This document shows, in pieces, positions 32,785-46,545 of a stretch of DNA of 64,000 nucleotides. Each line of letters starts with the position of its first letter. The first letter of the stretch is position 1. The notes beneath the pieces are model-generated. The model ran no database searches, was not told where the DNA came from, and was given only the letters and a program-made list of their open reading frames with translations. Made by a program: the position numbers and the translations under genes. This DNA comes from Methanosarcina sp. (lineage in GTDB: Archaea; Halobacteriota; Methanosarcinia; Methanosarcinales; Methanosarcinaceae): the NCBI RefSeq assembly GCF_028693135.1, contig NZ_JAQUVZ010000004.1:62001-126000 (forward strand), read 5' to 3'.

Positions 32785-33363
32785 TTAGCTGTTAACTATT
32801 TCATAGTCTGCACTGCAGTCAAAATACGTGTTCTCTGCATCGAATGTAATTCTTAGGAAGTTATTATTGGTAGTGGATGGTCCTATATTGTATAGATTGA
32901 TTGCAGAGTCATTTTCCGGCCACCAATTGATCAGGGCATTTTCGTCAACCTGTAGTTGAGTGCCGGATAAGTATGATGGAAGTTTATAAGTTAAAGTCGA
33001 TTCATAGTCTGAATAACCTTTCACCCATATTCCAGTGACTTTCCCTTGATCCACGAATTTTCCATCAATATACATTTTAACATTAAAATTGAAGTTTGTG
33101 ATCTGGTTGGCGCTCATATCTGCAATTCCAGACGTCTGGTCTCCGTCTATTACAAGCTTTACAATGTCATTCTTTTTAATTTTCTTTTGAGTTCCATCAA
33201 TTTCGACCCAGTAATGGTTATTTTGTCCATTGTTTTTAAATTGAATGTAAGTTCCCGAGGAAATAACTCCCCCGATTCCAGGTTTATTTAATATGATCCT
33301 ATTTCCATGAGTCGGTTCTTCTTCGGATTCCTCATCATCTTCTTCAGACTCAGAATCGTCTTC
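32785..33363 (-). CDS. In-frame C-terminal extension beyond the UAG codon
   Basis: Directly after the TAG at 33364-33366 the same frame is open for 192 codons to TAA. It begins with an acidic linker (EDDSESEEDDEE) and continues as a beta-rich, Asn/Tyr-rich domain (GNRIILNKPGIGG, NNHYWVEIDGTQ, FNFNVKMYIDGKFV, YFDCSADYEIVNS). The first ATG in it is codon 83, inside protein-like sequence and with only a weak RBS, so most of the domain can be made only by reading through UAG. The style resembles the exported parts of the neighbouring pilin-like proteins. A nonsense mutation in a longer gene is the main alternative. Confidence 0.65.
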   Translation of the reverse strand, partial: EDDSESEEDDEESEEEPTHGNRIILNKPGIGGVISSGTYIQFKNNGQNNHYWVEIDGTQKKIKKNDIVKLVIDGDQTSGIADMSANQITNFNFNVKMYIDGKFVDQGKVTGIWVKGYSDYESTLTYKLPSYLSGTQLQVDENALINWWPENDSAINLYNIGPSTTNNNFLRITFDAENTYFDCSADYEIVNS

Positions 33364-34314
33364 CTAAATGCTGTTCAGACTGCCTCCAGCTCCCAGTTCT
33401 GCCTGGATAACAGATTTGCTTATGTAGAGCCTCTCGAGGTTTTTACCGTCGGTGGGATGGAAAGAAAAGTATACGCTATCTGAGCCTATTTTACCAAGGT
33501 CATAGTCCGTGTCATACTCAAGCTCTGCATTTTCTGCTGTTTCCTTGAGGTAAGAAACCCAGGCATCCGGATATTTCGTTATAATTGTGCAGGTGAAATT
33601 ATCAATCTCTCCTGTCTCGGCGCTGTCATAGATAGGTCCGGCAGAAATTCCGGTCAGCCTCAAAGAAGCATCGGTATTCGAGGAAACTGAATCATTTTTG
33701 CCTCTCATTTCGATTGCTTGGATCGATACAGTATAATTTCCTTCTTCAGTTTTCTGTATACTGAATGATGGAATCTGCCTCATCAATGATCTCTCGTTCT
33801 GGGAAAGGATTAGGGCTCCGTTTTCATACCTGAAAACCTGATCCAGATATTGCCGGTTGTTTGAATAATAGGTAATGCCTCCACAGTCCACGATTTGAGG
33901 AGATTCTTCAATCGAAGGCCTTTTGGGAGTTATGACCATTCTGTAACGTTCTGTGTTCACTGATAGTGTCCCGCTTGATTTCGACGGTTCCAGAACAGGG
34001 ATTTCTCCTCCTCCCATGGTAAATGGAACAGTTACTGAATAACCGTAGGCTGAAGAATTTTGGTCTGAGGCCGTGAAGAGGGAGACCATGTCTGCCGTTG
34101 ATTTTAGTTCGGCCATATCGTTCTGGACTTCACTCATATGCGATTGTTCGGCATCAGTTTTCCATTGCGGAACATATTCAGTCCTTACCACTGTAAGCAC
34201 AGTAAATATGATGCTCATCAGCAGTATTGCCGCAATTACTGTGGCTCCTGCGGATTCTGAGTTGAAGAGGCTCTTCCTGGCCTTTTCCCTGCTTTTGTTC
34301 TTTCTGGTCTTCAT
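33364..34314 (-). CDS. Pilin-like membrane-anchored protein (DUF7289-like) ending in amber codon
   Basis: 316 residues to the TAG. After a basic N terminus (KTRKNKSREKARKSLFN) comes SESAGATVIAAILLMSIIFTVLTVV, a type III signal/anchor as in archaeal type IV pilins, then EYVPQWKTDAEQSHMSEVQNDM and a beta-rich exported region. Two paralogues lie at 34457 and 40181 and end at the equivalent point in TGA and TAA. This is the only gene in the window whose stop is TAG; the readthrough product would be 509 residues with residue 317 possibly pyrrolysine. Probably last in the minus-strand pilus gene row. Confidence 0.85.
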   Translation of the reverse strand: MKTRKNKSREKARKSLFNSESAGATVIAAILLMSIIFTVLTVVRTEYVPQWKTDAEQSHMSEVQNDMAELKSTADMVSLFTASDQNSSAYGYSVTVPFTMGGGEIPVLEPSKSSGTLSVNTERYRMVITPKRPSIEESPQIVDCGGITYYSNNRQYLDQVFRYENGALILSQNERSLMRQIPSFSIQKTEEGNYTVSIQAIEMRGKNDSVSSNTDASLRLTGISAGPIYDSAETGEIDNFTCTIITKYPDAWVSYLKETAENAELEYDTDYDLGKIGSDSVYFSFHPTDGKNLERLYISKSVIQAELGAGGSLNSI

Positions 34315-34456: not shown

Positions 34457-35374
34457 TCAGCTTAATCCATTCACAAGTTCCGCATTAACTGCGGTCTTTC
34501 CAACATAAAGCCTGGAAAGGCGATTTGTGCTCCCATCCTCCGGAAACGAAAAGGACAGACTATCGTTTTCAGTGAGTTTAAGGGCATAATCTTCATTTTT
34601 CTCCAGCCCTGCTCCGGTCAGCATTTCGTTAAAATAAGTTTCCCATGCGTCAGGGTGTTCAGTATCTATTGTTAACACGAAGGAGTCCACGTTTCCATCA
34701 TAGAGGGTATCAAAAGCACAATCTTTCAAATAAAAAGAACTGTCTGAGTTTGATGAAAGGGTATCTTCTAAACCCTGGACTTCTACGGCATTAATTAAAA
34801 AGCTGTAGTTTCCAGACGAAACTTCGGAGACACGGATTGAAGGATAAAGTTTCATAACCGACTGCTCTTTCTGCGCAAGAATCAAAGCCCCATTTTCGTA
34901 CTTGAAAGTCTGATCCACATAATACTTATTGTTCGAATGATATGCAATTGTGCCGCAGTTGATGACCGTCTCATTGCCATTTTTCGGAGTTATAGTCATT
35001 TTGCACCGGTTGGTGTTCACTGAAACGACCCCTCTGGACGTCATGGTGCCGATTAGAGGCATCTGCCAGCTTCCAATGTGAAGGGGTATATTCCTGGTTA
35101 TTTTTGGGGCAGAGGAATTTGGGTCTGAAATCAGGAGTAATGTAGTCCTGTCTATTTGTGACTTGAGTTCTGTCATGTCTTCCCATACATTGGCCACGCG
35201 GGAATGTTCTTCATCAGCTTTCCATTCCGGATAATATCCAAGATGGACCACGGAAAAAATTGAAAATACTATTCCTAAAAGCAAAATAGCTGCTATAGCT
35301 GTCGATGAAGCAGATTTTGACTCAATGAAAGGGTCTTTATTTACTCCTATCATTTTATCTCTAATTTCTGTCAT
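34457..35374 (-). CDS. Pilin-like membrane-anchored protein (DUF7289-like)
   Basis: 305-aa paralogue of the genes at 33364 and 40181. It has the N-terminal anchor SKSASSTAIAAILLLGIVFSIFSVV, then YYPEWKADEEHSRVANVWEDM and the same exported layout (VSVNTNRCKMTITPKN, VDQTFKYENGALILAQ, HPDAWETYFNEML, SRLYVGKTAVNAEL). It stops in TGA where the amber-ending paralogue continues. Likely a minor or pseudo-pilin of the local secretion machine; the role is inferred from context. Confidence 0.8.
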   Translation of the reverse strand: MTEIRDKMIGVNKDPFIESKSASSTAIAAILLLGIVFSIFSVVHLGYYPEWKADEEHSRVANVWEDMTELKSQIDRTTLLLISDPNSSAPKITRNIPLHIGSWQMPLIGTMTSRGVVSVNTNRCKMTITPKNGNETVINCGTIAYHSNNKYYVDQTFKYENGALILAQKEQSVMKLYPSIRVSEVSSGNYSFLINAVEVQGLEDTLSSNSDSSFYLKDCAFDTLYDGNVDSFVLTIDTEHPDAWETYFNEMLTGAGLEKNEDYALKLTENDSLSFSFPEDGSTNRLSRLYVGKTAVNAELVNGLS

Positions 35375-36775: not shown

Positions 36776-37225
36776 ATGGATCTCAAAAAAATATTCAGGA
36801 ATGACAAGGCAGTGTCCCCGGTTATCGGTGTCGTGCTGATGGTCGCAATCACCGTCATCCTCGCCGCTGCAATCGGTTCATCCGTTTTCGGCCAGGGAAC
36901 TGCCAAATCTGCACCGCAGGCGAATATAGACATTAAAGCAGTAAATCTCGAAGACAACGGAACTATAAAATTCGAACACCTTGGTGGTGACCCCATTCAT
37001 TTCGAGACTGATAATTCCACAACAAAGGTCATGGTATCTGTTAATGGAGGAAACTCTGTTGACCTGAATGCTACTACCCTTGGTACTTTTGATGTTGGTG
37101 ACGTAACGCAAATGGTTCTCAATAGCAACACCACAGCATCTGTGACGTCGGGGGACAGTCTTAACGTCAAGATCATCGATGTACAGACCAAGCAGCTTAT
37201 ATGTGACAGAACTATAAGGTTCTAA
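36776..37225 (+). CDS. Type IV pilin, copy 1 of three
   Basis: 149 aa. The N terminus MDLKKIFRNDKAVSPVIGVVL is an archaeal class III signal/pilin anchor; prepilin peptidase should cut near the Lys-Ala/Val-Ser site. The hydrophobic assembly helix is followed by a globular part ending ITKQ-like (DVQTKQLICDRTIRF). The first 60 residues are nearly identical in copies 2 and 3, while the middle (residues 60-115) varies. Probably a major pilin of the neighbouring machine. RBS GGAGGGAG is strong; a terminator follows. Confidence 0.9.
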   Translation: MDLKKIFRNDKAVSPVIGVVLMVAITVILAAAIGSSVFGQGTAKSAPQANIDIKAVNLEDNGTIKFEHLGGDPIHFETDNSTTKVMVSVNGGNSVDLNATTLGTFDVGDVTQMVLNSNTTASVTSGDSLNVKIIDVQTKQLICDRTIRF

Positions 37226-37236
37226 TCTTAAATGGA

Positions 37237-37280
37237 AAGCACCTTCTTTAGGTGTTATCCTTTTTTTTTTTGTTACTTTT
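37237..37280 (+). terminator. Terminator of pilin gene 1
   Basis: AGCACCT-TCTTT-AGGTGTT followed by ATCC and a run of 12 T. The same hairpin recurs after copies 2 and 3. Confidence 0.8.
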
Positions 37281-37304
37281 TTTGAATCAAGCTTATCTTT
37301 GTGC

Positions 37305-37495
37305 CTCATCATATACCTCTCCTCCCTTGTGGAAGATCCTCATGATATTAGCGCCTGTGTTAATGCTTTCCTGCGGGTCACTTTTGGCGTATGAGGAGGA
37401 TTTACAGCTCCTCCATCGGAGAATACGACCACGGCTATTGAAAAACACATCAGCGTGGCAATCTGGCCAAATGCCCTATATTTTATCCCTCCTCT
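37305..37495 (-). pseudogene. Broken copy of the 350-aa pilin gene (N-terminal part)
   Basis: On the minus strand this region resembles the first 80 codons of the gene at 35433: it retains VFSDGGAVNPPHTPK versus VFSEEEAANPPHTPK, but much of the anchor helix is deleted and the frame breaks after about 15 more codons. No start codon context remains. It is a by-product of the duplication that produced the pilin copies. Confidence 0.75.
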
Positions 37496-37665
37496 ATAAA
37501 AATAATATTCTATAAATTTCTTGCAAAACTTCTTACTATTTTTGTTTATTTTATCTAGTCTTGTCTGTCTGAGAAAACTACTTTTTATTTTGAGGGATTA
37601 CAAGCATATTTCCAAATAATGTTTGCAAATATTTATAAATAAGTTTATAATGTTATCTGCAAAAC

Positions 37666-37795
37666 TTTATATACTAATGAAGAATATCTTTAAGTATAGT
37701 TCTAAAAAAATAAAAATTGTAACTATGGTATTCAAGTGTTAAAATTCAGACAGATTGTCCTGTCTGGATGTATTTGATTTTGGAGGGAGAATCAT
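37666..37795 (+). promoter_or_regulatory. Promoter and hairpin leader of pilin gene 2
   Basis: TTTATATA at 37666-37673 is the TATA box. The leader hairpin is perfect in this copy: CAGACAG-ATTGTC-CTGTCTG (37747-37766), a 7-bp stem; the extra pair relative to copies 1 and 3 supports a selected structure. GGAGGGAG precedes the ATG at 37796. Confidence 0.6.
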
Positions 37796-38233
37796 ATGGA
37801 TTTCAAGAAAATATTTAGGAACGACAAGGCAGTTTCCCCGGTTATCGGTGTCGTGCTGATGGTCGCAATCACCGTTATCCTCGCCGCCGCAATCGGATCA
37901 TCCGTTTTCGGTCAGGGGACTGCCAAATCTGCACCGCAGGCGAACATAGACATTAAAGCAGTAAACGAAACAGGCAACGGAACTATAAAATTTGAACACC
38001 TTGGTGGTGACCCAATTCATTTTGAGTCTGACTCTATGACAAAGGTCATGGGATCTGTCAATGGCGGAAATTCTCACGAAATTTATGCGGTTGCTCTTGA
38101 TACTTTTGATGTCGGTGATGTACAATTAATGGTACTCAATAATGTTTCTGTGAATTCGGGCGACAATCTCAACGTCAAGATCATCGATGTACAGACCAAG
38201 CAGCTTATCTGTGACCGAACTGTAAGATTCTAA
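37796..38233 (+). CDS. Type IV pilin, copy 2 of three
   Basis: 145 aa, MDFKKIFRNDKAVSPVIG at the start. Identical assembly helix to copies 1 and 3; variable middle (NETGNGTIKFEHLGGDP, MGSVNGGNSHEIYAVAL), same C terminus DVQTKQLICDRTVRF. Own promoter, leader hairpin and terminator, so it is an independent transcription unit. Confidence 0.9.
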   Translation: MDFKKIFRNDKAVSPVIGVVLMVAITVILAAAIGSSVFGQGTAKSAPQANIDIKAVNETGNGTIKFEHLGGDPIHFESDSMTKVMGSVNGGNSHEIYAVALDTFDVGDVQLMVLNNVSVNSGDNLNVKIIDVQTKQLICDRTVRF

Positions 38234-38245
38234 ACTCAAATGGAA

Positions 38246-38282
38246 AGCACCTTCTCCAGGTGCTATCTTTTTCCTTTTCTTT
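38246..38282 (+). terminator. Terminator of pilin gene 2
   Basis: AGCACCT-TCTCC-AGGTGCT, a perfect 7-bp stem, followed by ATCTTTTTCCTTTTCTTTTG. Confidence 0.8.
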
Positions 38283-38317
38283 TGTTACTTTTTCTGAATC
38301 AAGCTTCTTTTATGCTT

Positions 38318-38572
38318 CATCATCATAAGCCTCTTCCCTCTTGTGGGAGATCTTTACGGTATTAGCGCCTGTGTTATTGTTTCCTGCAGGTCAGCTTTTG
38401 GTGTATGAGGGGGATTTGCCGCTCCCTCCTCTGAAAACACGAACGCAACTATTGACGAAAAAGCCAGCACAACTATAGCTAACATGAGCACCTGCCCAAT
38501 TATCTTCAAAACTTCCTGGTATTCCTGGTTAAGTTCTCTGTACTTTTTACTATCCTCTGCGACAAATGTCAC
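38318..38572 (-). pseudogene. Truncated copy of the 350-aa pilin gene
   Basis: The frame from 38572 gives 72 aa whose anchor and hinge match the gene at 35433 (IIGQVLMLAIVVLAFSSIVAFVFSEEGAANPPHTPKADLQ in two blocks), then a one-base deletion in the TVKIF region shifts the frame to an early stop at 38354. It keeps an intact anchor, so a short peptide might still be made, but the exported domain is gone. Confidence 0.8.
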
Positions 38573-38732
38573 ATCCTATAAATTTCTTGCCCAACTTATT
38601 ACGATATTTTTGATTTACTAATGTATTGGCGGTCTAAGAAAAGTTCTTTTTATTTTGAGTACTTAATATTTTCTTCCATAATAATATTAACAAAAATTAA
38701 TAAATAATTTCAGAATGTTGCCTGCAAAAATA

Positions 38733-38860
38733 TTTATACAAACAAAGAATATCTTTGAGTGCAGTTATAAAAAATGATGATTGTTAATATGTGTATTCAA
38801 ACGTTAAAATTCAGACAGGCTGTCCTGTATGGATGTCTTTAACTCAGGAGGGAGAAACAT
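38733..38860 (+). promoter_or_regulatory. Promoter and hairpin leader of pilin gene 3
   Basis: TTTATACA at 38733-38740 is a weaker TATA box than in copies 1 and 2. The leader from TTCAGACAGGCTGTCCTG to the ATG at 38861 is almost identical to copy 1, including the RBS GGAGGGAG. Confidence 0.55.
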
Positions 38861-39298
38861 ATGGATCTCAAAAAAATATTCAGGAATGACAAGGCAGTGT
38901 CCCCGGTTATCGGTGTCGTGCTGATGGTCGCAATCACCGTCATCCTCGCCGCTGCAATCGGTTCATCCGTTTTCGGCCAGGGAACTGCCAAATCTGCACC
39001 GCAGGCGAATATAGACATTAAAGCAATAAACGCTACAGGTGGTGGATGGATAAAATTCGAACACCTTGGTGGCGACCCAATTCATTTCGAGTCTAACTCT
39101 ACAACAAAGGTCATGGGCTCTGTCAATGGTGGAAATTCTGATGAAATTTACGCTGTCAATCTCACTACTTTTGATGTCGGTGACGTACAAGTTATGGCAC
39201 TCAACAACGTTACTGTGACGTCAGGTGACAGTCTCAACGTCAAGATCATCGATGTACAGACCAAGCAGCTGATCTGCGACAGAACTCTAAGGTTCTAA
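38861..39298 (+). CDS. Type IV pilin, copy 3 of three
   Basis: 145 aa, starting MDLKKIFRNDKAVSPVIG. DNA identity with copy 1 is near complete over the leader and first 60 codons. The middle region differs (ATGGGWIKFEHLGGDP, NSDEIYAVNLTTF) and the end is DVQTKQLICDRTLRF. The last of the triplet; a terminator follows, then a long non-coding stretch. Confidence 0.9.
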   Translation: MDLKKIFRNDKAVSPVIGVVLMVAITVILAAAIGSSVFGQGTAKSAPQANIDIKAINATGGGWIKFEHLGGDPIHFESNSTTKVMGSVNGGNSDEIYAVNLTTFDVGDVQVMALNNVTVTSGDSLNVKIIDVQTKQLICDRTLRF

Positions 39299-40180: not shown

Positions 40181-41107
40181 TTAAGTCTCGGTTTCGATTT
40201 TTATCATGGTATTGTAGGCTTCAAAGTTGATAGTTCTATTATTTTTATGGGGGAGAGAAAAGGTGACCAGGTGGGTGCCGGTGCTGAGGTTGTAGTCCGT
40301 GCCGTTCTGGAGGTTAATCTCATTGGTTGAATCTTCAAAATATTTTTCCCAGGCTTCCGGATTTTCTGTGTAGATAGTCAGGTCCACAGAGGTGATGTTG
40401 GCTTTTACAGTTCCGTTTGCATTACTATATTCTCCGTTATAGAGGGTTCCGAAGCCTTCGCATGTCATCCTGACGTCCTCTATGCTATTGCTGGCCAGAA
40501 CTCCGCGGTTCCCTTCCAGGGTTACGGCCCGAACTGAAAGGTTTACTGAGGAGGTATCTCCATTTATCACAATTCCCGGGGAAAGTTTCATCATGGACCT
40601 GTCGTTCCGGGAGACTATGAGAGCTCCGTTTTCGTAGCAGTAAGTTTCGTCTACGTAATGGATGTTAGTAGGACGATATGAGACCGAGCCTGTATAAAAT
40701 AACGTGTTATTGCTGTTGTATCCCACAACATCATCATCTACGACTATTAACATGCCTGAGATGTCGTTGTTTATGGCAAGAGTCCCACCTGTTTTCATGC
40801 CTCCTATGAATGGCACATCACTCCCCCCCATCTCGACCGGGCTGTTCAGCACGAGCCTTGAATTCGGGTTTATCTCGAGCCCTGCTGCCAGAATGTCAAC
40901 GTTAGACTTGAGCCTGGCCATGTCCTGCCATACATCGGACATATGGGCGTATTCTGCGTCTTCTTTCCAGACGGGCACGTAATTAAGCTGGATTGTTGTC
41001 ATTGCGGCAACTACAATTCCGAGCAGCAGGGCTGCGGCAACGGCGACAGCTACCCCGGATTCGGATCTGTAAAAAGAGGATATTGCTTTAAAGCCCCTAT
41101 TTTTCAT
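40181..41107 (-). CDS. Pilin-like membrane-anchored protein (DUF7289-like)
   Basis: 308-aa paralogue of the genes at 34457 and 33364: anchor SESGVAVAVAAALLLGIVVAAMTTIQ, then YVPVWKEDAEYAHMSDVWQDM, and the exported region with ETYCYENGALIVSRND and NPEAWEKYFEDST. Ends in TAA. It follows two pilin-like genes on the same strand (41217 and 41803), so the order pilin / pilin / DUF7289-like repeats the order seen at 36485-33364. Confidence 0.8.
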   Translation of the reverse strand: MKNRGFKAISSFYRSESGVAVAVAAALLLGIVVAAMTTIQLNYVPVWKEDAEYAHMSDVWQDMARLKSNVDILAAGLEINPNSRLVLNSPVEMGGSDVPFIGGMKTGGTLAINNDISGMLIVVDDDVVGYNSNNTLFYTGSVSYRPTNIHYVDETYCYENGALIVSRNDRSMMKLSPGIVINGDTSSVNLSVRAVTLEGNRGVLASNSIEDVRMTCEGFGTLYNGEYSNANGTVKANITSVDLTIYTENPEAWEKYFEDSTNEINLQNGTDYNLSTGTHLVTFSLPHKNNRTINFEAYNTMIKIETET

Positions 41108-42866: not shown

Positions 42867-44858
42867 TTAAACCATGAATGTAAAGACCACATACGTGATT
42901 ATCATCATGCTGACGCTGTACTTCAGGCCCATGTATACTGAACCCTGTCCCATCTTTCCGGCAATAAGCCCGGAAGTTAAAGCCTGGACAAGAGCAGAGT
43001 GGTACATGAGCATCGTGTACTCTTCGATGTTGAAGTAGCTATTTCCGATCCCTCCGTATCCTCCCACTCCCTGAGCCGAATTCTTGAATGATGCACTTTC
43101 CGGAAAGAAATACACAGCCAGGACGTAAACGATGAAAAGGAAGACAAAAAAGGCTACGTAGATGGTTACGACGTAGACCACCATTTCCGAAGAGCGCTCT
43201 TTTTTCAGCCTCTCATCACCCTTTACCTGTTCTGCGGTAATGGATAGCACACTTTTAAGGTCGCTTGTAGATTCGTTTGCCTTTATGAGGGTATGGATAA
43301 TCCGGCTTGAGGAAGCGGTTCTGATGTTGTTTTCAAGTTTCATGAGGGCTCTTGAAGTAGAAGTTCCCCATGAGATGTCTTCCTTTAGCTTTTTGAGTTC
43401 TTTGCTAAGGAGTCCCATCTTGGATTCTGCTATTATTTTTAAGGAATTAGAAAGCAAGATCCCTGAATCGTTCATACTTGACAGGTTTCTCAGCAGGTCA
43501 GGCATTCTCTCATCAATTTTTCGCATTCTCCATGCCCTGATCTCGTAAAATATGATGAAAGGAATGAGTGAGATTACGATAAATATGACCAGGTAATCAT
43601 CAATTGCGCTGATAAAATGAACACTGCTATCACTGATATGGGCAAAGGTCAGGTTCCAGTGGAAATTATAATTTATACTATCCTTAAGAGCTTTAGGAAG
43701 ATGGGTGAGATAGTAAAACCCTAGAGGGATCCCGAAAAAGAATGTATATCTGGGTTCTTCCCGGATAGTCCTGTACGGATTAAAAATCCGGTCCCTGATA
43801 TTGTAAAGCTGCTTGTATAGCTTTAACTTTTTGTCCCTTTTTTCCTCCTCTTCTACACTGAGTTCTGACCTGAGCTCCGGGATATCGGAAAAGTCTATGG
43901 GATAACCGGGAACACTGCCCTTTTTCGGGCTCATGGAGAGTTCTCCCACTGTATCTAGAAACACTATGAAAAGCAGGGTTGCAAGAGGTATTATGGCATA
44001 AATTAACATGTACAGGATCTGGGCTGAAGCTGGCTTGAAAAACTGCAGCACGACAAGGGTTGTCATTATGAACAATGGGCCTGCGACAAGCACAGTCACA
44101 TAGACTTCTGCAAGGACATCCAGCCTCTTTAACAGGTTCCGGTTTGCCAGTTCCGCCATATCCTGGTACTGTTCAGACTTATTTTTTATGTATTCGGTTA
44201 TGGTTCCGCTGCTTGAAACAAGGATCAAGCCGTCAATAAAATCCTTAAAAAGGTCCGAAGGGGTGCGTTCTTTGGCTTCTTTAAGGGCACTTATAAAATC
44301 CTTTCCCAGGTAGTCCATGTCCCGCACAATGTAGGAGATTTCTTCCGCGCTTGTGCCAAATATATGGGTATACTTGCTAAGAGACCTGAAAACATCATAT
44401 ATTGACATGCCGCCCTTTGTAAGAGCGTACATGTAAGTTACCGCCGGCAGCATGGATTTATCTATACAGGCGTTCCGAATATCTGCCTGTAAATAAGGAT
44501 AGATGTATGCCACCCCGAAGACGGTAAGAAAACTTATAACGAATATCAAAAGAGCGACTAAAATCGCAAGTAAATAAAGGTACTCTTCTGCAAATCCTGC
44601 ATTCGTGGAATCCACAAAAAGGCTGAGTCGGGAAATAGGGTCTCCAAAGGTTTTCAGCCCGAGCCATCCCCCGAAGATTCCTCCGATTATACCTGCGAAT
44701 ATCGAATACATGAAGGCTGAAGCCAGGTACTGGTCCACTGACATTGGAATATGGGAGTGGCGTATCTTTACTTTGAGCTCCTGAAAGCTTTCCTTATTTT
44801 TGTAGAAGAAGTTCCCAAAAGTTCTGTATGCCAGTTCGTCCACAGAAATGTAAGTCAT
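42867..44858 (-). CDS. Type IV pilus/archaellum assembly membrane protein (TadC/ArlJ-like, two T2SF domains)
   Basis: 663 aa from this start. This is the polytopic platform protein that works with the secretion ATPase. The N-terminal half has membrane segments near 40-65 and 95-125 and a T2SF domain (LAELANRNLLKRLDVLAEVY); the second half repeats the domain (MPDLLRNLSSMNDSGILLSNSL) and ends with several helices. I start at MTYISVDELAY (44858), which has GAGGGGG just upstream and lies 10 nt after the ATPase stop; six extra residues are possible. Confidence 0.9.
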   Translation of the reverse strand: MTYISVDELAYRTFGNFFYKNKESFQELKVKIRHSHIPMSVDQYLASAFMYSIFAGIIGGIFGGWLGLKTFGDPISRLSLFVDSTNAGFAEEYLYLLAILVALLIFVISFLTVFGVAYIYPYLQADIRNACIDKSMLPAVTYMYALTKGGMSIYDVFRSLSKYTHIFGTSAEEISYIVRDMDYLGKDFISALKEAKERTPSDLFKDFIDGLILVSSSGTITEYIKNKSEQYQDMAELANRNLLKRLDVLAEVYVTVLVAGPLFIMTTLVVLQFFKPASAQILYMLIYAIIPLATLLFIVFLDTVGELSMSPKKGSVPGYPIDFSDIPELRSELSVEEEEKRDKKLKLYKQLYNIRDRIFNPYRTIREEPRYTFFFGIPLGFYYLTHLPKALKDSINYNFHWNLTFAHISDSSVHFISAIDDYLVIFIVISLIPFIIFYEIRAWRMRKIDERMPDLLRNLSSMNDSGILLSNSLKIIAESKMGLLSKELKKLKEDISWGTSTSRALMKLENNIRTASSSRIIHTLIKANESTSDLKSVLSITAEQVKGDERLKKERSSEMVVYVVTIYVAFFVFLFIVYVLAVYFFPESASFKNSAQGVGGYGGIGNSYFNIEEYTMLMYHSALVQALTSGLIAGKMGQGSVYMGLKYSVSMMIITYVVFTFMV

Positions 44859-44868
44859 GTTCCCCCTC

Positions 44869-46545
44869 TTAAGCAACCATATCCTGTATCATACCTTGCA
44901 GGGTGTCGTTTTCTATACCTTCCATGACCATTTTCGGATAACTCTGATACGCCTGCACTACAAGAGATACCTGGATGTAACTCCTCATATTTTTCTCATA
45001 CAGGTAAGTCAGGATCTTTCTTCGGCTCTCGATCTCGTTTCTCAACTGGCCCGAATCCCATCCTCTAACGTGCATGATATCCTGCATGAGATGGGAGTCC
45101 CCAACTTTCAGGAAGCTGTCTTCAGAAGGTTCCCAGTTGAAAATCTCGTTTATGCCAAGGTCTCCTGTCTCAGTGTCCACGTTAAGGACTTCTACAAGGC
45201 TCCTTGTTCTCCTGACTCTTTCATCTTCTATGTACACCTGTTCCTGGATACACAGCACATCAAGCGACTGCAGCATAATATGAGGCACATTTATGGGTTC
45301 GTGGGTAAGCCTGTTTATAACAGTCTGAACATCTCCTGCGTGCATTGTCGAGCTTGTTGCATGCCCTGTTGACATTGCCTGGAACAGAGTAAGAGCTTCA
45401 CTGCCTCTTACTTCACCCACAATGATGAAATCCGGACGCTGTCTCAGGGAAGCCCTTAAAAGGTCGTACATGGAAACTTCTCCCGTAGCATCTGCGGCAA
45501 AGCTTTCCCTTGAAATACCCGAGACCCAGTTGTTGTGGTAGAGCAAGAGTTCCCTTGTATCCTCTATAGAGACTATCTTGGCTGTGGAAGGCATGAAAAG
45601 GGAAGTGGCGTTAAGCATTGAGGTTTTTCCTGAAGCCGTCCCTCCTGCAAAAAGCATATTGTAGCCGTTTTCAATGACCAGCCAGAGGTATACCAGCATT
45701 TCCATATCGCACGTTTTAAAGCCGAGCAGGTCGATAGGTGTTATCGGATCTTTTCTGAACTTACGGATAGTAAATGAACTGCCGCGGGGAGTTATTTCTC
45801 TCCCTAACATAGCCTGAAGCCTTGATCCATCCTGGATTGTTGCATCCACGATTGGCTGGCTGACAGAGATGTGCTTGTTATTCAGCTGGCACATCTTGAT
45901 TACAAGGGAGTCGAGTTCTTCCTCTTCAAAAGAAATATTACTTTCAATATTGAGATACCTCGTATGATAAATATAGAGTGGAACTCCTACACCGTCACAC
46001 GATATGTCTTCTATATATGGATCATAAAGAAGAGAATTGATTTTTTCATAACCAAGCAGGTTCCTTCTGAGGTAATACATTATCTTGTGAATGGCTGAGG
46101 CTGAAATTTCAGCTTTATAACGTTCAAGAAGGAAAAGGGTTTTGTCCACAAGGTACGCATCTTTTTCTATTTTAGAGGTCGTAGGGTTCAAAACCATTAC
46201 ATCTTGAAAATCCTCATAAAGTCTCTCAAGCAGTTCTTTTTCAAACTTTGTAAGGGCAGGTTCAACCAGCCTGTAGTATTTTGTTCTGCGGTCTTCCAGG
46301 ATCGATACCAGACAATAAGGTTCTTGAAGCCAGTACCTTTCGATTTCCTTAAATCCTTCAGGTACTTCAAACTCTATGAGAGGTCCTTCATTTTCCTGGT
46401 CGTACGTCGGCATGCTTCTCAAAGGCTTATCAAAATAACTTTTAGTCCTTTTTAGTATCTCTGAGATGGAGTTACTATCGCCTGTTTTCCCGAATAACCC
46501 CGAAATAAAACTTTTCTTTTCCGAGATTTCTGTTACTTCATCCAT
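44869..46545 (-). CDS. Type II/IV secretion system ATPase (pilus/archaellum type)
   Basis: 558-aa hexameric motor ATPase of the GspE/ArlI/TadA family. The N-terminal 240 residues are the variable domain; the RecA-like core has Walker A FAGGTASGKTSML, the Asp box SIEDTRELLL, Walker B DFIIVGEVRGSEAL and the His box STGHATSSTMHAGD. It directly precedes the platform protein and the pilin genes, so it should power their assembly. First gene of the clearly linked set, with a 480-bp space before the KaiC-like gene's end. Confidence 0.94.
   Translation of the reverse strand: MDEVTEISEKKSFISGLFGKTGDSNSISEILKRTKSYFDKPLRSMPTYDQENEGPLIEFEVPEGFKEIERYWLQEPYCLVSILEDRRTKYYRLVEPALTKFEKELLERLYEDFQDVMVLNPTTSKIEKDAYLVDKTLFLLERYKAEISASAIHKIMYYLRRNLLGYEKINSLLYDPYIEDISCDGVGVPLYIYHTRYLNIESNISFEEEELDSLVIKMCQLNNKHISVSQPIVDATIQDGSRLQAMLGREITPRGSSFTIRKFRKDPITPIDLLGFKTCDMEMLVYLWLVIENGYNMLFAGGTASGKTSMLNATSLFMPSTAKIVSIEDTRELLLYHNNWVSGISRESFAADATGEVSMYDLLRASLRQRPDFIIVGEVRGSEALTLFQAMSTGHATSSTMHAGDVQTVINRLTHEPINVPHIMLQSLDVLCIQEQVYIEDERVRRTRSLVEVLNVDTETGDLGINEIFNWEPSEDSFLKVGDSHLMQDIMHVRGWDSGQLRNEIESRRKILTYLYEKNMRSYIQVSLVVQAYQSYPKMVMEGIENDTLQGMIQDMVA

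Follow-up and report, generated by a model that had tools for sequence, protein, structure and literature searches.

An in-frame amber codon in the linker of a modular pilin-like protein of Methanosarcina: probably a derived stop with incidental pyrrolysine readthrough

The window analyzed here, a 64,000-nucleotide stretch of a Methanosarcina contig, contains genes for type IV pilus assembly and, beside them, a minus-strand ORF of 316 codons (33364-34314) that terminates with TAG. Beyond this amber codon, the same reading frame continues into a sequence that we call the extension, made up of an acidic linker and a domain that we call type A. The features concerned, all on the minus strand, are as follows:

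33367-34314 (-): pilin-like body at the N terminus (316 aa), a helix followed by a beta head; DUF7289 (PF23960), from Pfam and AlphaFold
33364-33366 (-): in-frame TAG, codon 317; relatives that have the type A domain show a sense codon here, the sister species (G008) TAA
33313-33363 (-): acidic linker EDDSESEEDDEESEEEP, 17 aa, predicted to be disordered, from pLDDT and allele comparison
32788-33312 (-): C-terminal all-beta domain (type A), 175 aa, from predicted fold and homology
32785-32787 (-): TAA that would terminate the extended form, from reading the frame
32785-33117 (-): internal ATG ORF in the extension, starting within the folded domain and unlikely to be a gene
34457-35374 (-): neighbouring paralogue (DUF7289), short form without extension, TGA end, from Pfam and locus comparison
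40181-41107 (-): second paralogue (DUF7289), short form, TAA end, from Pfam and locus comparison
42867-46545 (-): two genes for assembly of a type IV pilus, encoding a membrane platform protein (T2SSF) and a PilB-like ATPase (T2SSE), from Pfam

The original prediction had described 192 open codons behind the TAG, with no usable start in the first 82 of them, and both points were confirmed: the frame runs to the TAA at 32785-32787, and a scan for ATG, GTG and TTG finds the first of these 82 codons into the extension. At the all-frame stop density of the window, an open frame of 192 codons has a probability of ~1.4e-4. A chance open frame is ruled out by homology and by selection on the extension, and a separate gene 3′ of the TAG is ruled out by the 82 codons without a start and by the internal ATG lying inside the fold. 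TAG is indeed a rare stop in this genome, as had been proposed, ending 12 of 279 ORFs of at least 100 aa in 348 kb and 6 of 366 coding-like ORFs in a 655 kb sample (~15.5% of the 4.22 Mb genome, on which the genome-wide counts rest). Apart from the pilin-like gene, no TAG ORF in either sample is extended by more than 50 codons, and none in the 655 kb by 40 or more. Coding-like extensions of at least 40 codons whose first 25 codons lack a start comprise, in the same 655 kb, the pilin-like gene and a single TAA case of low complexity; none follows a TGA. No unusual RNA structure or PYLIS-like element was found 3′ of the TAG (z 0.70). The two paralogues were said to end at the amber position with TGA and TAA; the stop types hold, but the ends (AELVNGLS-TGA and MIKIETET-TAA) lie near that position and not exactly at it.

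The body scores 34.4 bits against DUF7289 (PF23960), over the Pfam cut-off of 27, and belongs to this family together with its two paralogues, with T2SSE and T2SSF genes nearby. The family spans the body only, whereas no Pfam family reaches its cut-off with the exchanged C-terminal domain. In the AlphaFold model of the read-through protein, the first 20 residues are of low confidence, helices occupy residues 22-46 and 50-83, and strands between 93 and 307 form a beta head. A second low-confidence stretch (309-352, with pLDDT ~21-29 over residues 311-350) contains the amber at 317, which probably lies in a disordered linker as far as the model can tell. The acidic linker and the well-formed beta-rich domain that had been described after the TAG are both borne out, the predicted fold of the type A domain being all-beta at pLDDT 92.4. 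Across 15 sequences this domain has 28 invariant columns, and the extension keeps 28 of the 29 columns that are invariant in the other sequences, the single change being L to I. A sequence search of solved structures gave no match for it, nor did Foldseek at E 0.001 or better. The best fold match on a second look was galectin LEC-6 (Z 5.3, rmsd 2.6, 68 residues aligned); such galectin-like matches between predicted and known folds are too weak to name a function, and a binding role would be a guess.

The assembly pair is identified by strong Pfam matches (T2SSF, E 6.3e-33; T2SSE, E 1.5e-32), and the locus also encodes several proteins with an archaeal type IV pilin N terminus. The protein itself has no Pilin_N (PF07790) match at E up to 1, though its neighbours do. 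Its predicted N-terminal helix and beta head, with pilus ATPase and platform genes adjoining, are the anatomy of a type IV pilus-associated pilin-like protein. It is reasonable to regard it as pilin-like and as part of the type IV pilus locus, so that it would be exported and assembled and would act at the surface. The locus also contains, on the plus strand at 36776-39298, three consecutive short pilin-like genes with near-identical N-terminal halves and more divergent C-terminal halves.

The tRNA-Pyl gene (pylT) of this genome has the anticodon CUA, and its PylS, PylB and PylC score over their NCBIfam cut-offs; the ORF after pylC has a PylD-like start and is a candidate pylD. Some archaea reportedly decode all TAG codons as pyrrolysine, according to work from 2025. 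The pylB gene of this genome has TAG as its own stop, which has also been described for M. mazei and M. acetivorans (PMC2933860). UAG codons in no particular context are read through at 20-30% in M. acetivorans, and PYLIS is not essential for this (PMC2933860). Since both tRNA-Pyl and PylRS are encoded in this genome, and by analogy with the published readthrough in M. acetivorans, some extended, pyrrolysine-containing product is to be expected. The properties of a pyrrolysine protein found here are the host pyl genes and an in-frame TAG behind which the coding sequence of the protein goes on and is conserved. Insertion of pyrrolysine should be tolerated, because the site probably falls within a disordered linker. 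Two other observations were made on this genome: the N- and C-terminal domains of its PylS (L065:15485-17128, contig C76), which has 547 aa compared with 425 positions in the full-length NCBIfam model, are joined by a long linker of Ala/Pro/Ser repeats; and two near-identical gene stretches lie ~12 kb apart on contig C41 (L059-L060, ~48-65 kb), with a 437-aa and a 170-aa ORF repeated.

Matches to the protein were obtained in 28 of 31 Methanosarcina genomes. Four species (G001, G007, G011 and G021) encode the same two-part protein of ~515 residues in one open frame without a stop, and their C-terminal domains are 78-82% identical to the type A domain described here. In most other Methanosarcina species the same body is joined to another kind of C-terminal domain (type B); one (G012) has a long repeat region after the body, and six more (G002, G005, G024, G025, G026 and G029) have stops or frameshifts that disrupt the sequence beyond the body. 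The sister species G008 combines a stop in the same column with a decayed, shortened type B remnant. Across the orthologous loci (window 32785-34314 and L006-L034), at least two unrelated C-terminal domain types occur in Methanosarcina, and the domain was lost repeatedly. Such repeated loss suggests, on comparative grounds, that the C-terminal domain may be dispensable. A search of the plasmid collection gave no match.

A search with only the type A domain across 112 genomes of the family returned it in 28, from five genera. The matched stretch has no internal stop in 26 of the 27 other genomes (G095 has one TGA); of the 23 matching genomes from other genera, 22 have the domain in a frame that no stop interrupts. 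Where copies from other genera were read, the domain mostly has a PKD-like stretch on its N-terminal side and a further domain on its C-terminal side, and in other Methanosarcinaceae genera (L073-L081) these PKD-flanked copies belong to proteins with a pilin-like N terminus. Those multidomain pilin-like proteins share the type A domain at 42-51% identity, but mostly on another N-terminal scaffold and with an extra C-terminal domain; none of the copies read has a stop before the domain. Because the frame is uninterrupted in four congeners and in 22 of 23 other-genus genomes, the extension is, judging from these sequences, best described as an ancestral domain severed by a derived stop and not as a conserved pyrrolysine site.

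Body and domain do not share one history. Compared with G011, the extension has 85% DNA identity and a dS of 0.34 and the downstream fdhD gene a dS of 0.42, whereas the body has only 63% identity and a dS of 1.58; this contrast between extension and body indicates that their histories differ. The DNA of the acidic linker is similar between type A and type B alleles, and it is likely to be the crossover point at which C-terminal domain types would have been exchanged.

At the stop column, G011 reads ATT GGA GAG, G009 ATT GGA GAA, and G001 and G007 GGA GAA; G008 reads ATT TAA GAG and this genome ATT TAG GAA, the last two sharing an ATT-TAR-GA context. Once a 3-base insertion and a 3-base deletion are allowed for in the linker, TAG and TAA fall in one column. 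Among the relatives, G008 is closest to this genome (dS 0.19 in the body, 0.11 in fdhD), and a stop already present in the common ancestor would be the cheaper reading: it takes three changes (from GGA to TAA before the split, then TAA to TAG in this genome), fewer than independent origins would. A single origin of the stop may be assumed only with reserve, since the two species now differ in their C-terminal domain and the locus has undergone recombination. The comparison of homologues suggested with the original prediction, which asked whether the codon is conserved as TAG, came out against it: no species compared shares TAG at this column, which is a sense codon in G001, G007, G011 and G021 and TAA in G008, although all five have a tRNA-Pyl gene. 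A selected pyrrolysine site would be expected to be conserved as TAG. Decay of the extension in close relatives and replacement of TAG by TAA had been named in advance as arguments against that prediction, and the sister species presents both.

A codon model of five type A domains gives an omega of 0.20-0.23 on the branch of this genome, which does not differ from the background (2ΔlnL 0.07) and for which omega = 1 is rejected (2ΔlnL 7.1 or 10.8, depending on which of two topologies is used). Purifying selection is clear over the whole branch of the extension, and its share after the stop is not separable from the earlier part. The extension branch spans ~0.47 neutral substitutions per codon and the body branch since the G008 split only ~0.13, so that most of the purifying signal may predate the stop; the Ka/Ks evidence that had been called for is thus present for the branch as a whole, but may say little about the time after interruption. 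The extension may be a relic too young to have decayed. In simulations (d 0.043-0.055 per site, the frameshift share resting on assumed indel rates), the probability that a neutral extension stays free of stops and frameshifts since the G008 split was 0.03-0.15. An intact extension would be somewhat surprising under neutrality if the stop is ancestral, which leans to maintenance; if the stop is recent, it is uninformative. The body (window 33367-34314, compared with L009) shows raised omega in the two species whose linker column holds a stop, namely 0.72 on the branch of this genome and 0.50 on that of G008, against ~0.22.

The closest parallel is Thg1, the tRNA-His guanylyltransferase of M. 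acetivorans, in which a non-essential amber is decoded with incorporation of pyrrolysine (PMC2933860); a reading by drift has been discussed for such amber cases (PMC3639795). Both genes are uninterrupted in relatives and gained a single in-frame amber in one pyl-bearing species. Pyrrolysine was physically observed in Thg1, whereas readthrough of the pilin-like gene is what we infer; moreover, the amber of the latter lies between two domains, so termination would yield an apparently complete short protein. The methylamine methyltransferases MtmB, MtbB and MttB likewise have an in-frame UAG in pyl-bearing methanogens. Theirs, however, encodes an active-site pyrrolysine, is found across methanogens and is read through at up to 97% (PMC8211752), unlike the UAG described here, which is not conserved and probably lies in a disordered linker.

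Our hypothesis, to which we give a probability of roughly 0.6, is that the amber of this modular protein, associated with the type IV pilus, is derived and that its readthrough with pyrrolysine is incidental. In the protein, a helix and a beta head at the N terminus would be connected through a disordered, acidic linker to a beta domain at the C terminus that can be exchanged, and the stop in the linker would be specific to the lineage and now TAG. Most ribosomes would terminate there, giving a paralogue-like short form of 316 residues, and a minor share (20-30% by analogy) would insert pyrrolysine in the linker and complete a form of 509 residues. The amber would most likely have spread by drift or as a first step of domain loss, and neither pyrrolysine nor a fixed ratio of short to long forms would be what was selected; readthrough, its rate and this lack of selection are the parts that we infer. 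The stop may instead have simply ended use of the domain in this lineage, leaving a young relic whose readthrough product is negligible or degraded, with TAG in place of TAA by chance. The TAA and decayed domain of the sister species, the six further congeners with broken extensions and the raised body omega on both stop-bearing branches agree with such a plain truncation, as does the three-change path from GGA through TAA to TAG, the cheapest explanation of the column. Still, readthrough of 20-30% in M. acetivorans (PMC2933860) makes zero product improbable if the pyl genes are expressed, and the extension has neither a second stop nor a frameshift and keeps almost all of its otherwise invariant columns; we regard plain truncation as unlikely. 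A sequencing or assembly error in a gene that is really continuous, as in relatives, might be suspected in a draft genome of 89 contigs, the more so as the extension looks fully functional. The TAA of G008 in the same column and shared context, and a linker that differs from those of relatives by an apparent 3-base insertion and deletion and not by a single base, make such an error highly improbable.

A selected switch was also considered, in which UAG decoding sets the ratio of short to extended forms, perhaps linking the surface to pyrrolysine supply in methylamine growth. A stop that separates body from domain and probably falls in a disordered linker would suit it, as would an intact domain with low branch omega, pyl genes in the genome, and the fact that the sole stop in the frame is the one that pyrrolysine can read. 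Against it, TAG is absent from all other species compared, the sister having TAA, no unusual downstream RNA structure accompanies the codon, and repeated domain loss in the genus suggests dispensability. We consider the switch decidedly unlikely. The two-form design that had been proposed is physically plausible, but evolutionary support for it is missing, given an unconserved codon and a domain that is often lost. What stands of the proposed pyrrolysine candidate is the intact conserved domain, the pyl genes and the expected partial readthrough; a conserved, regulated pyrrolysine site does not. On the sequences compared, a derived stop in a domain-losing genus appears to fit the data better than an evolved two-form design.

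Few natural amber-interrupted proteins are known besides the methylamine methyltransferases, and what is new relative to the known cases is a putative surface protein with an amber between two complete domains. A single stop, two complete products, a folded domain past the stop and uninterrupted relatives make for a clean test design. It is a long shot that UAG decoding sets how much of the pilus-associated protein carries the C-terminal beta domain and in this way lets the cell surface follow pyrrolysine supply, and with it methylamine growth; if true, this would be a regulatory, non-catalytic use of pyrrolysine. The locus also documents domain exchange via an acidic linker at a pilus-locus gene, the exchanged domain being repeatedly lost in the genus, and the case bears on how codons of this kind are tolerated or put to use in a genome where UAG is ambiguous.
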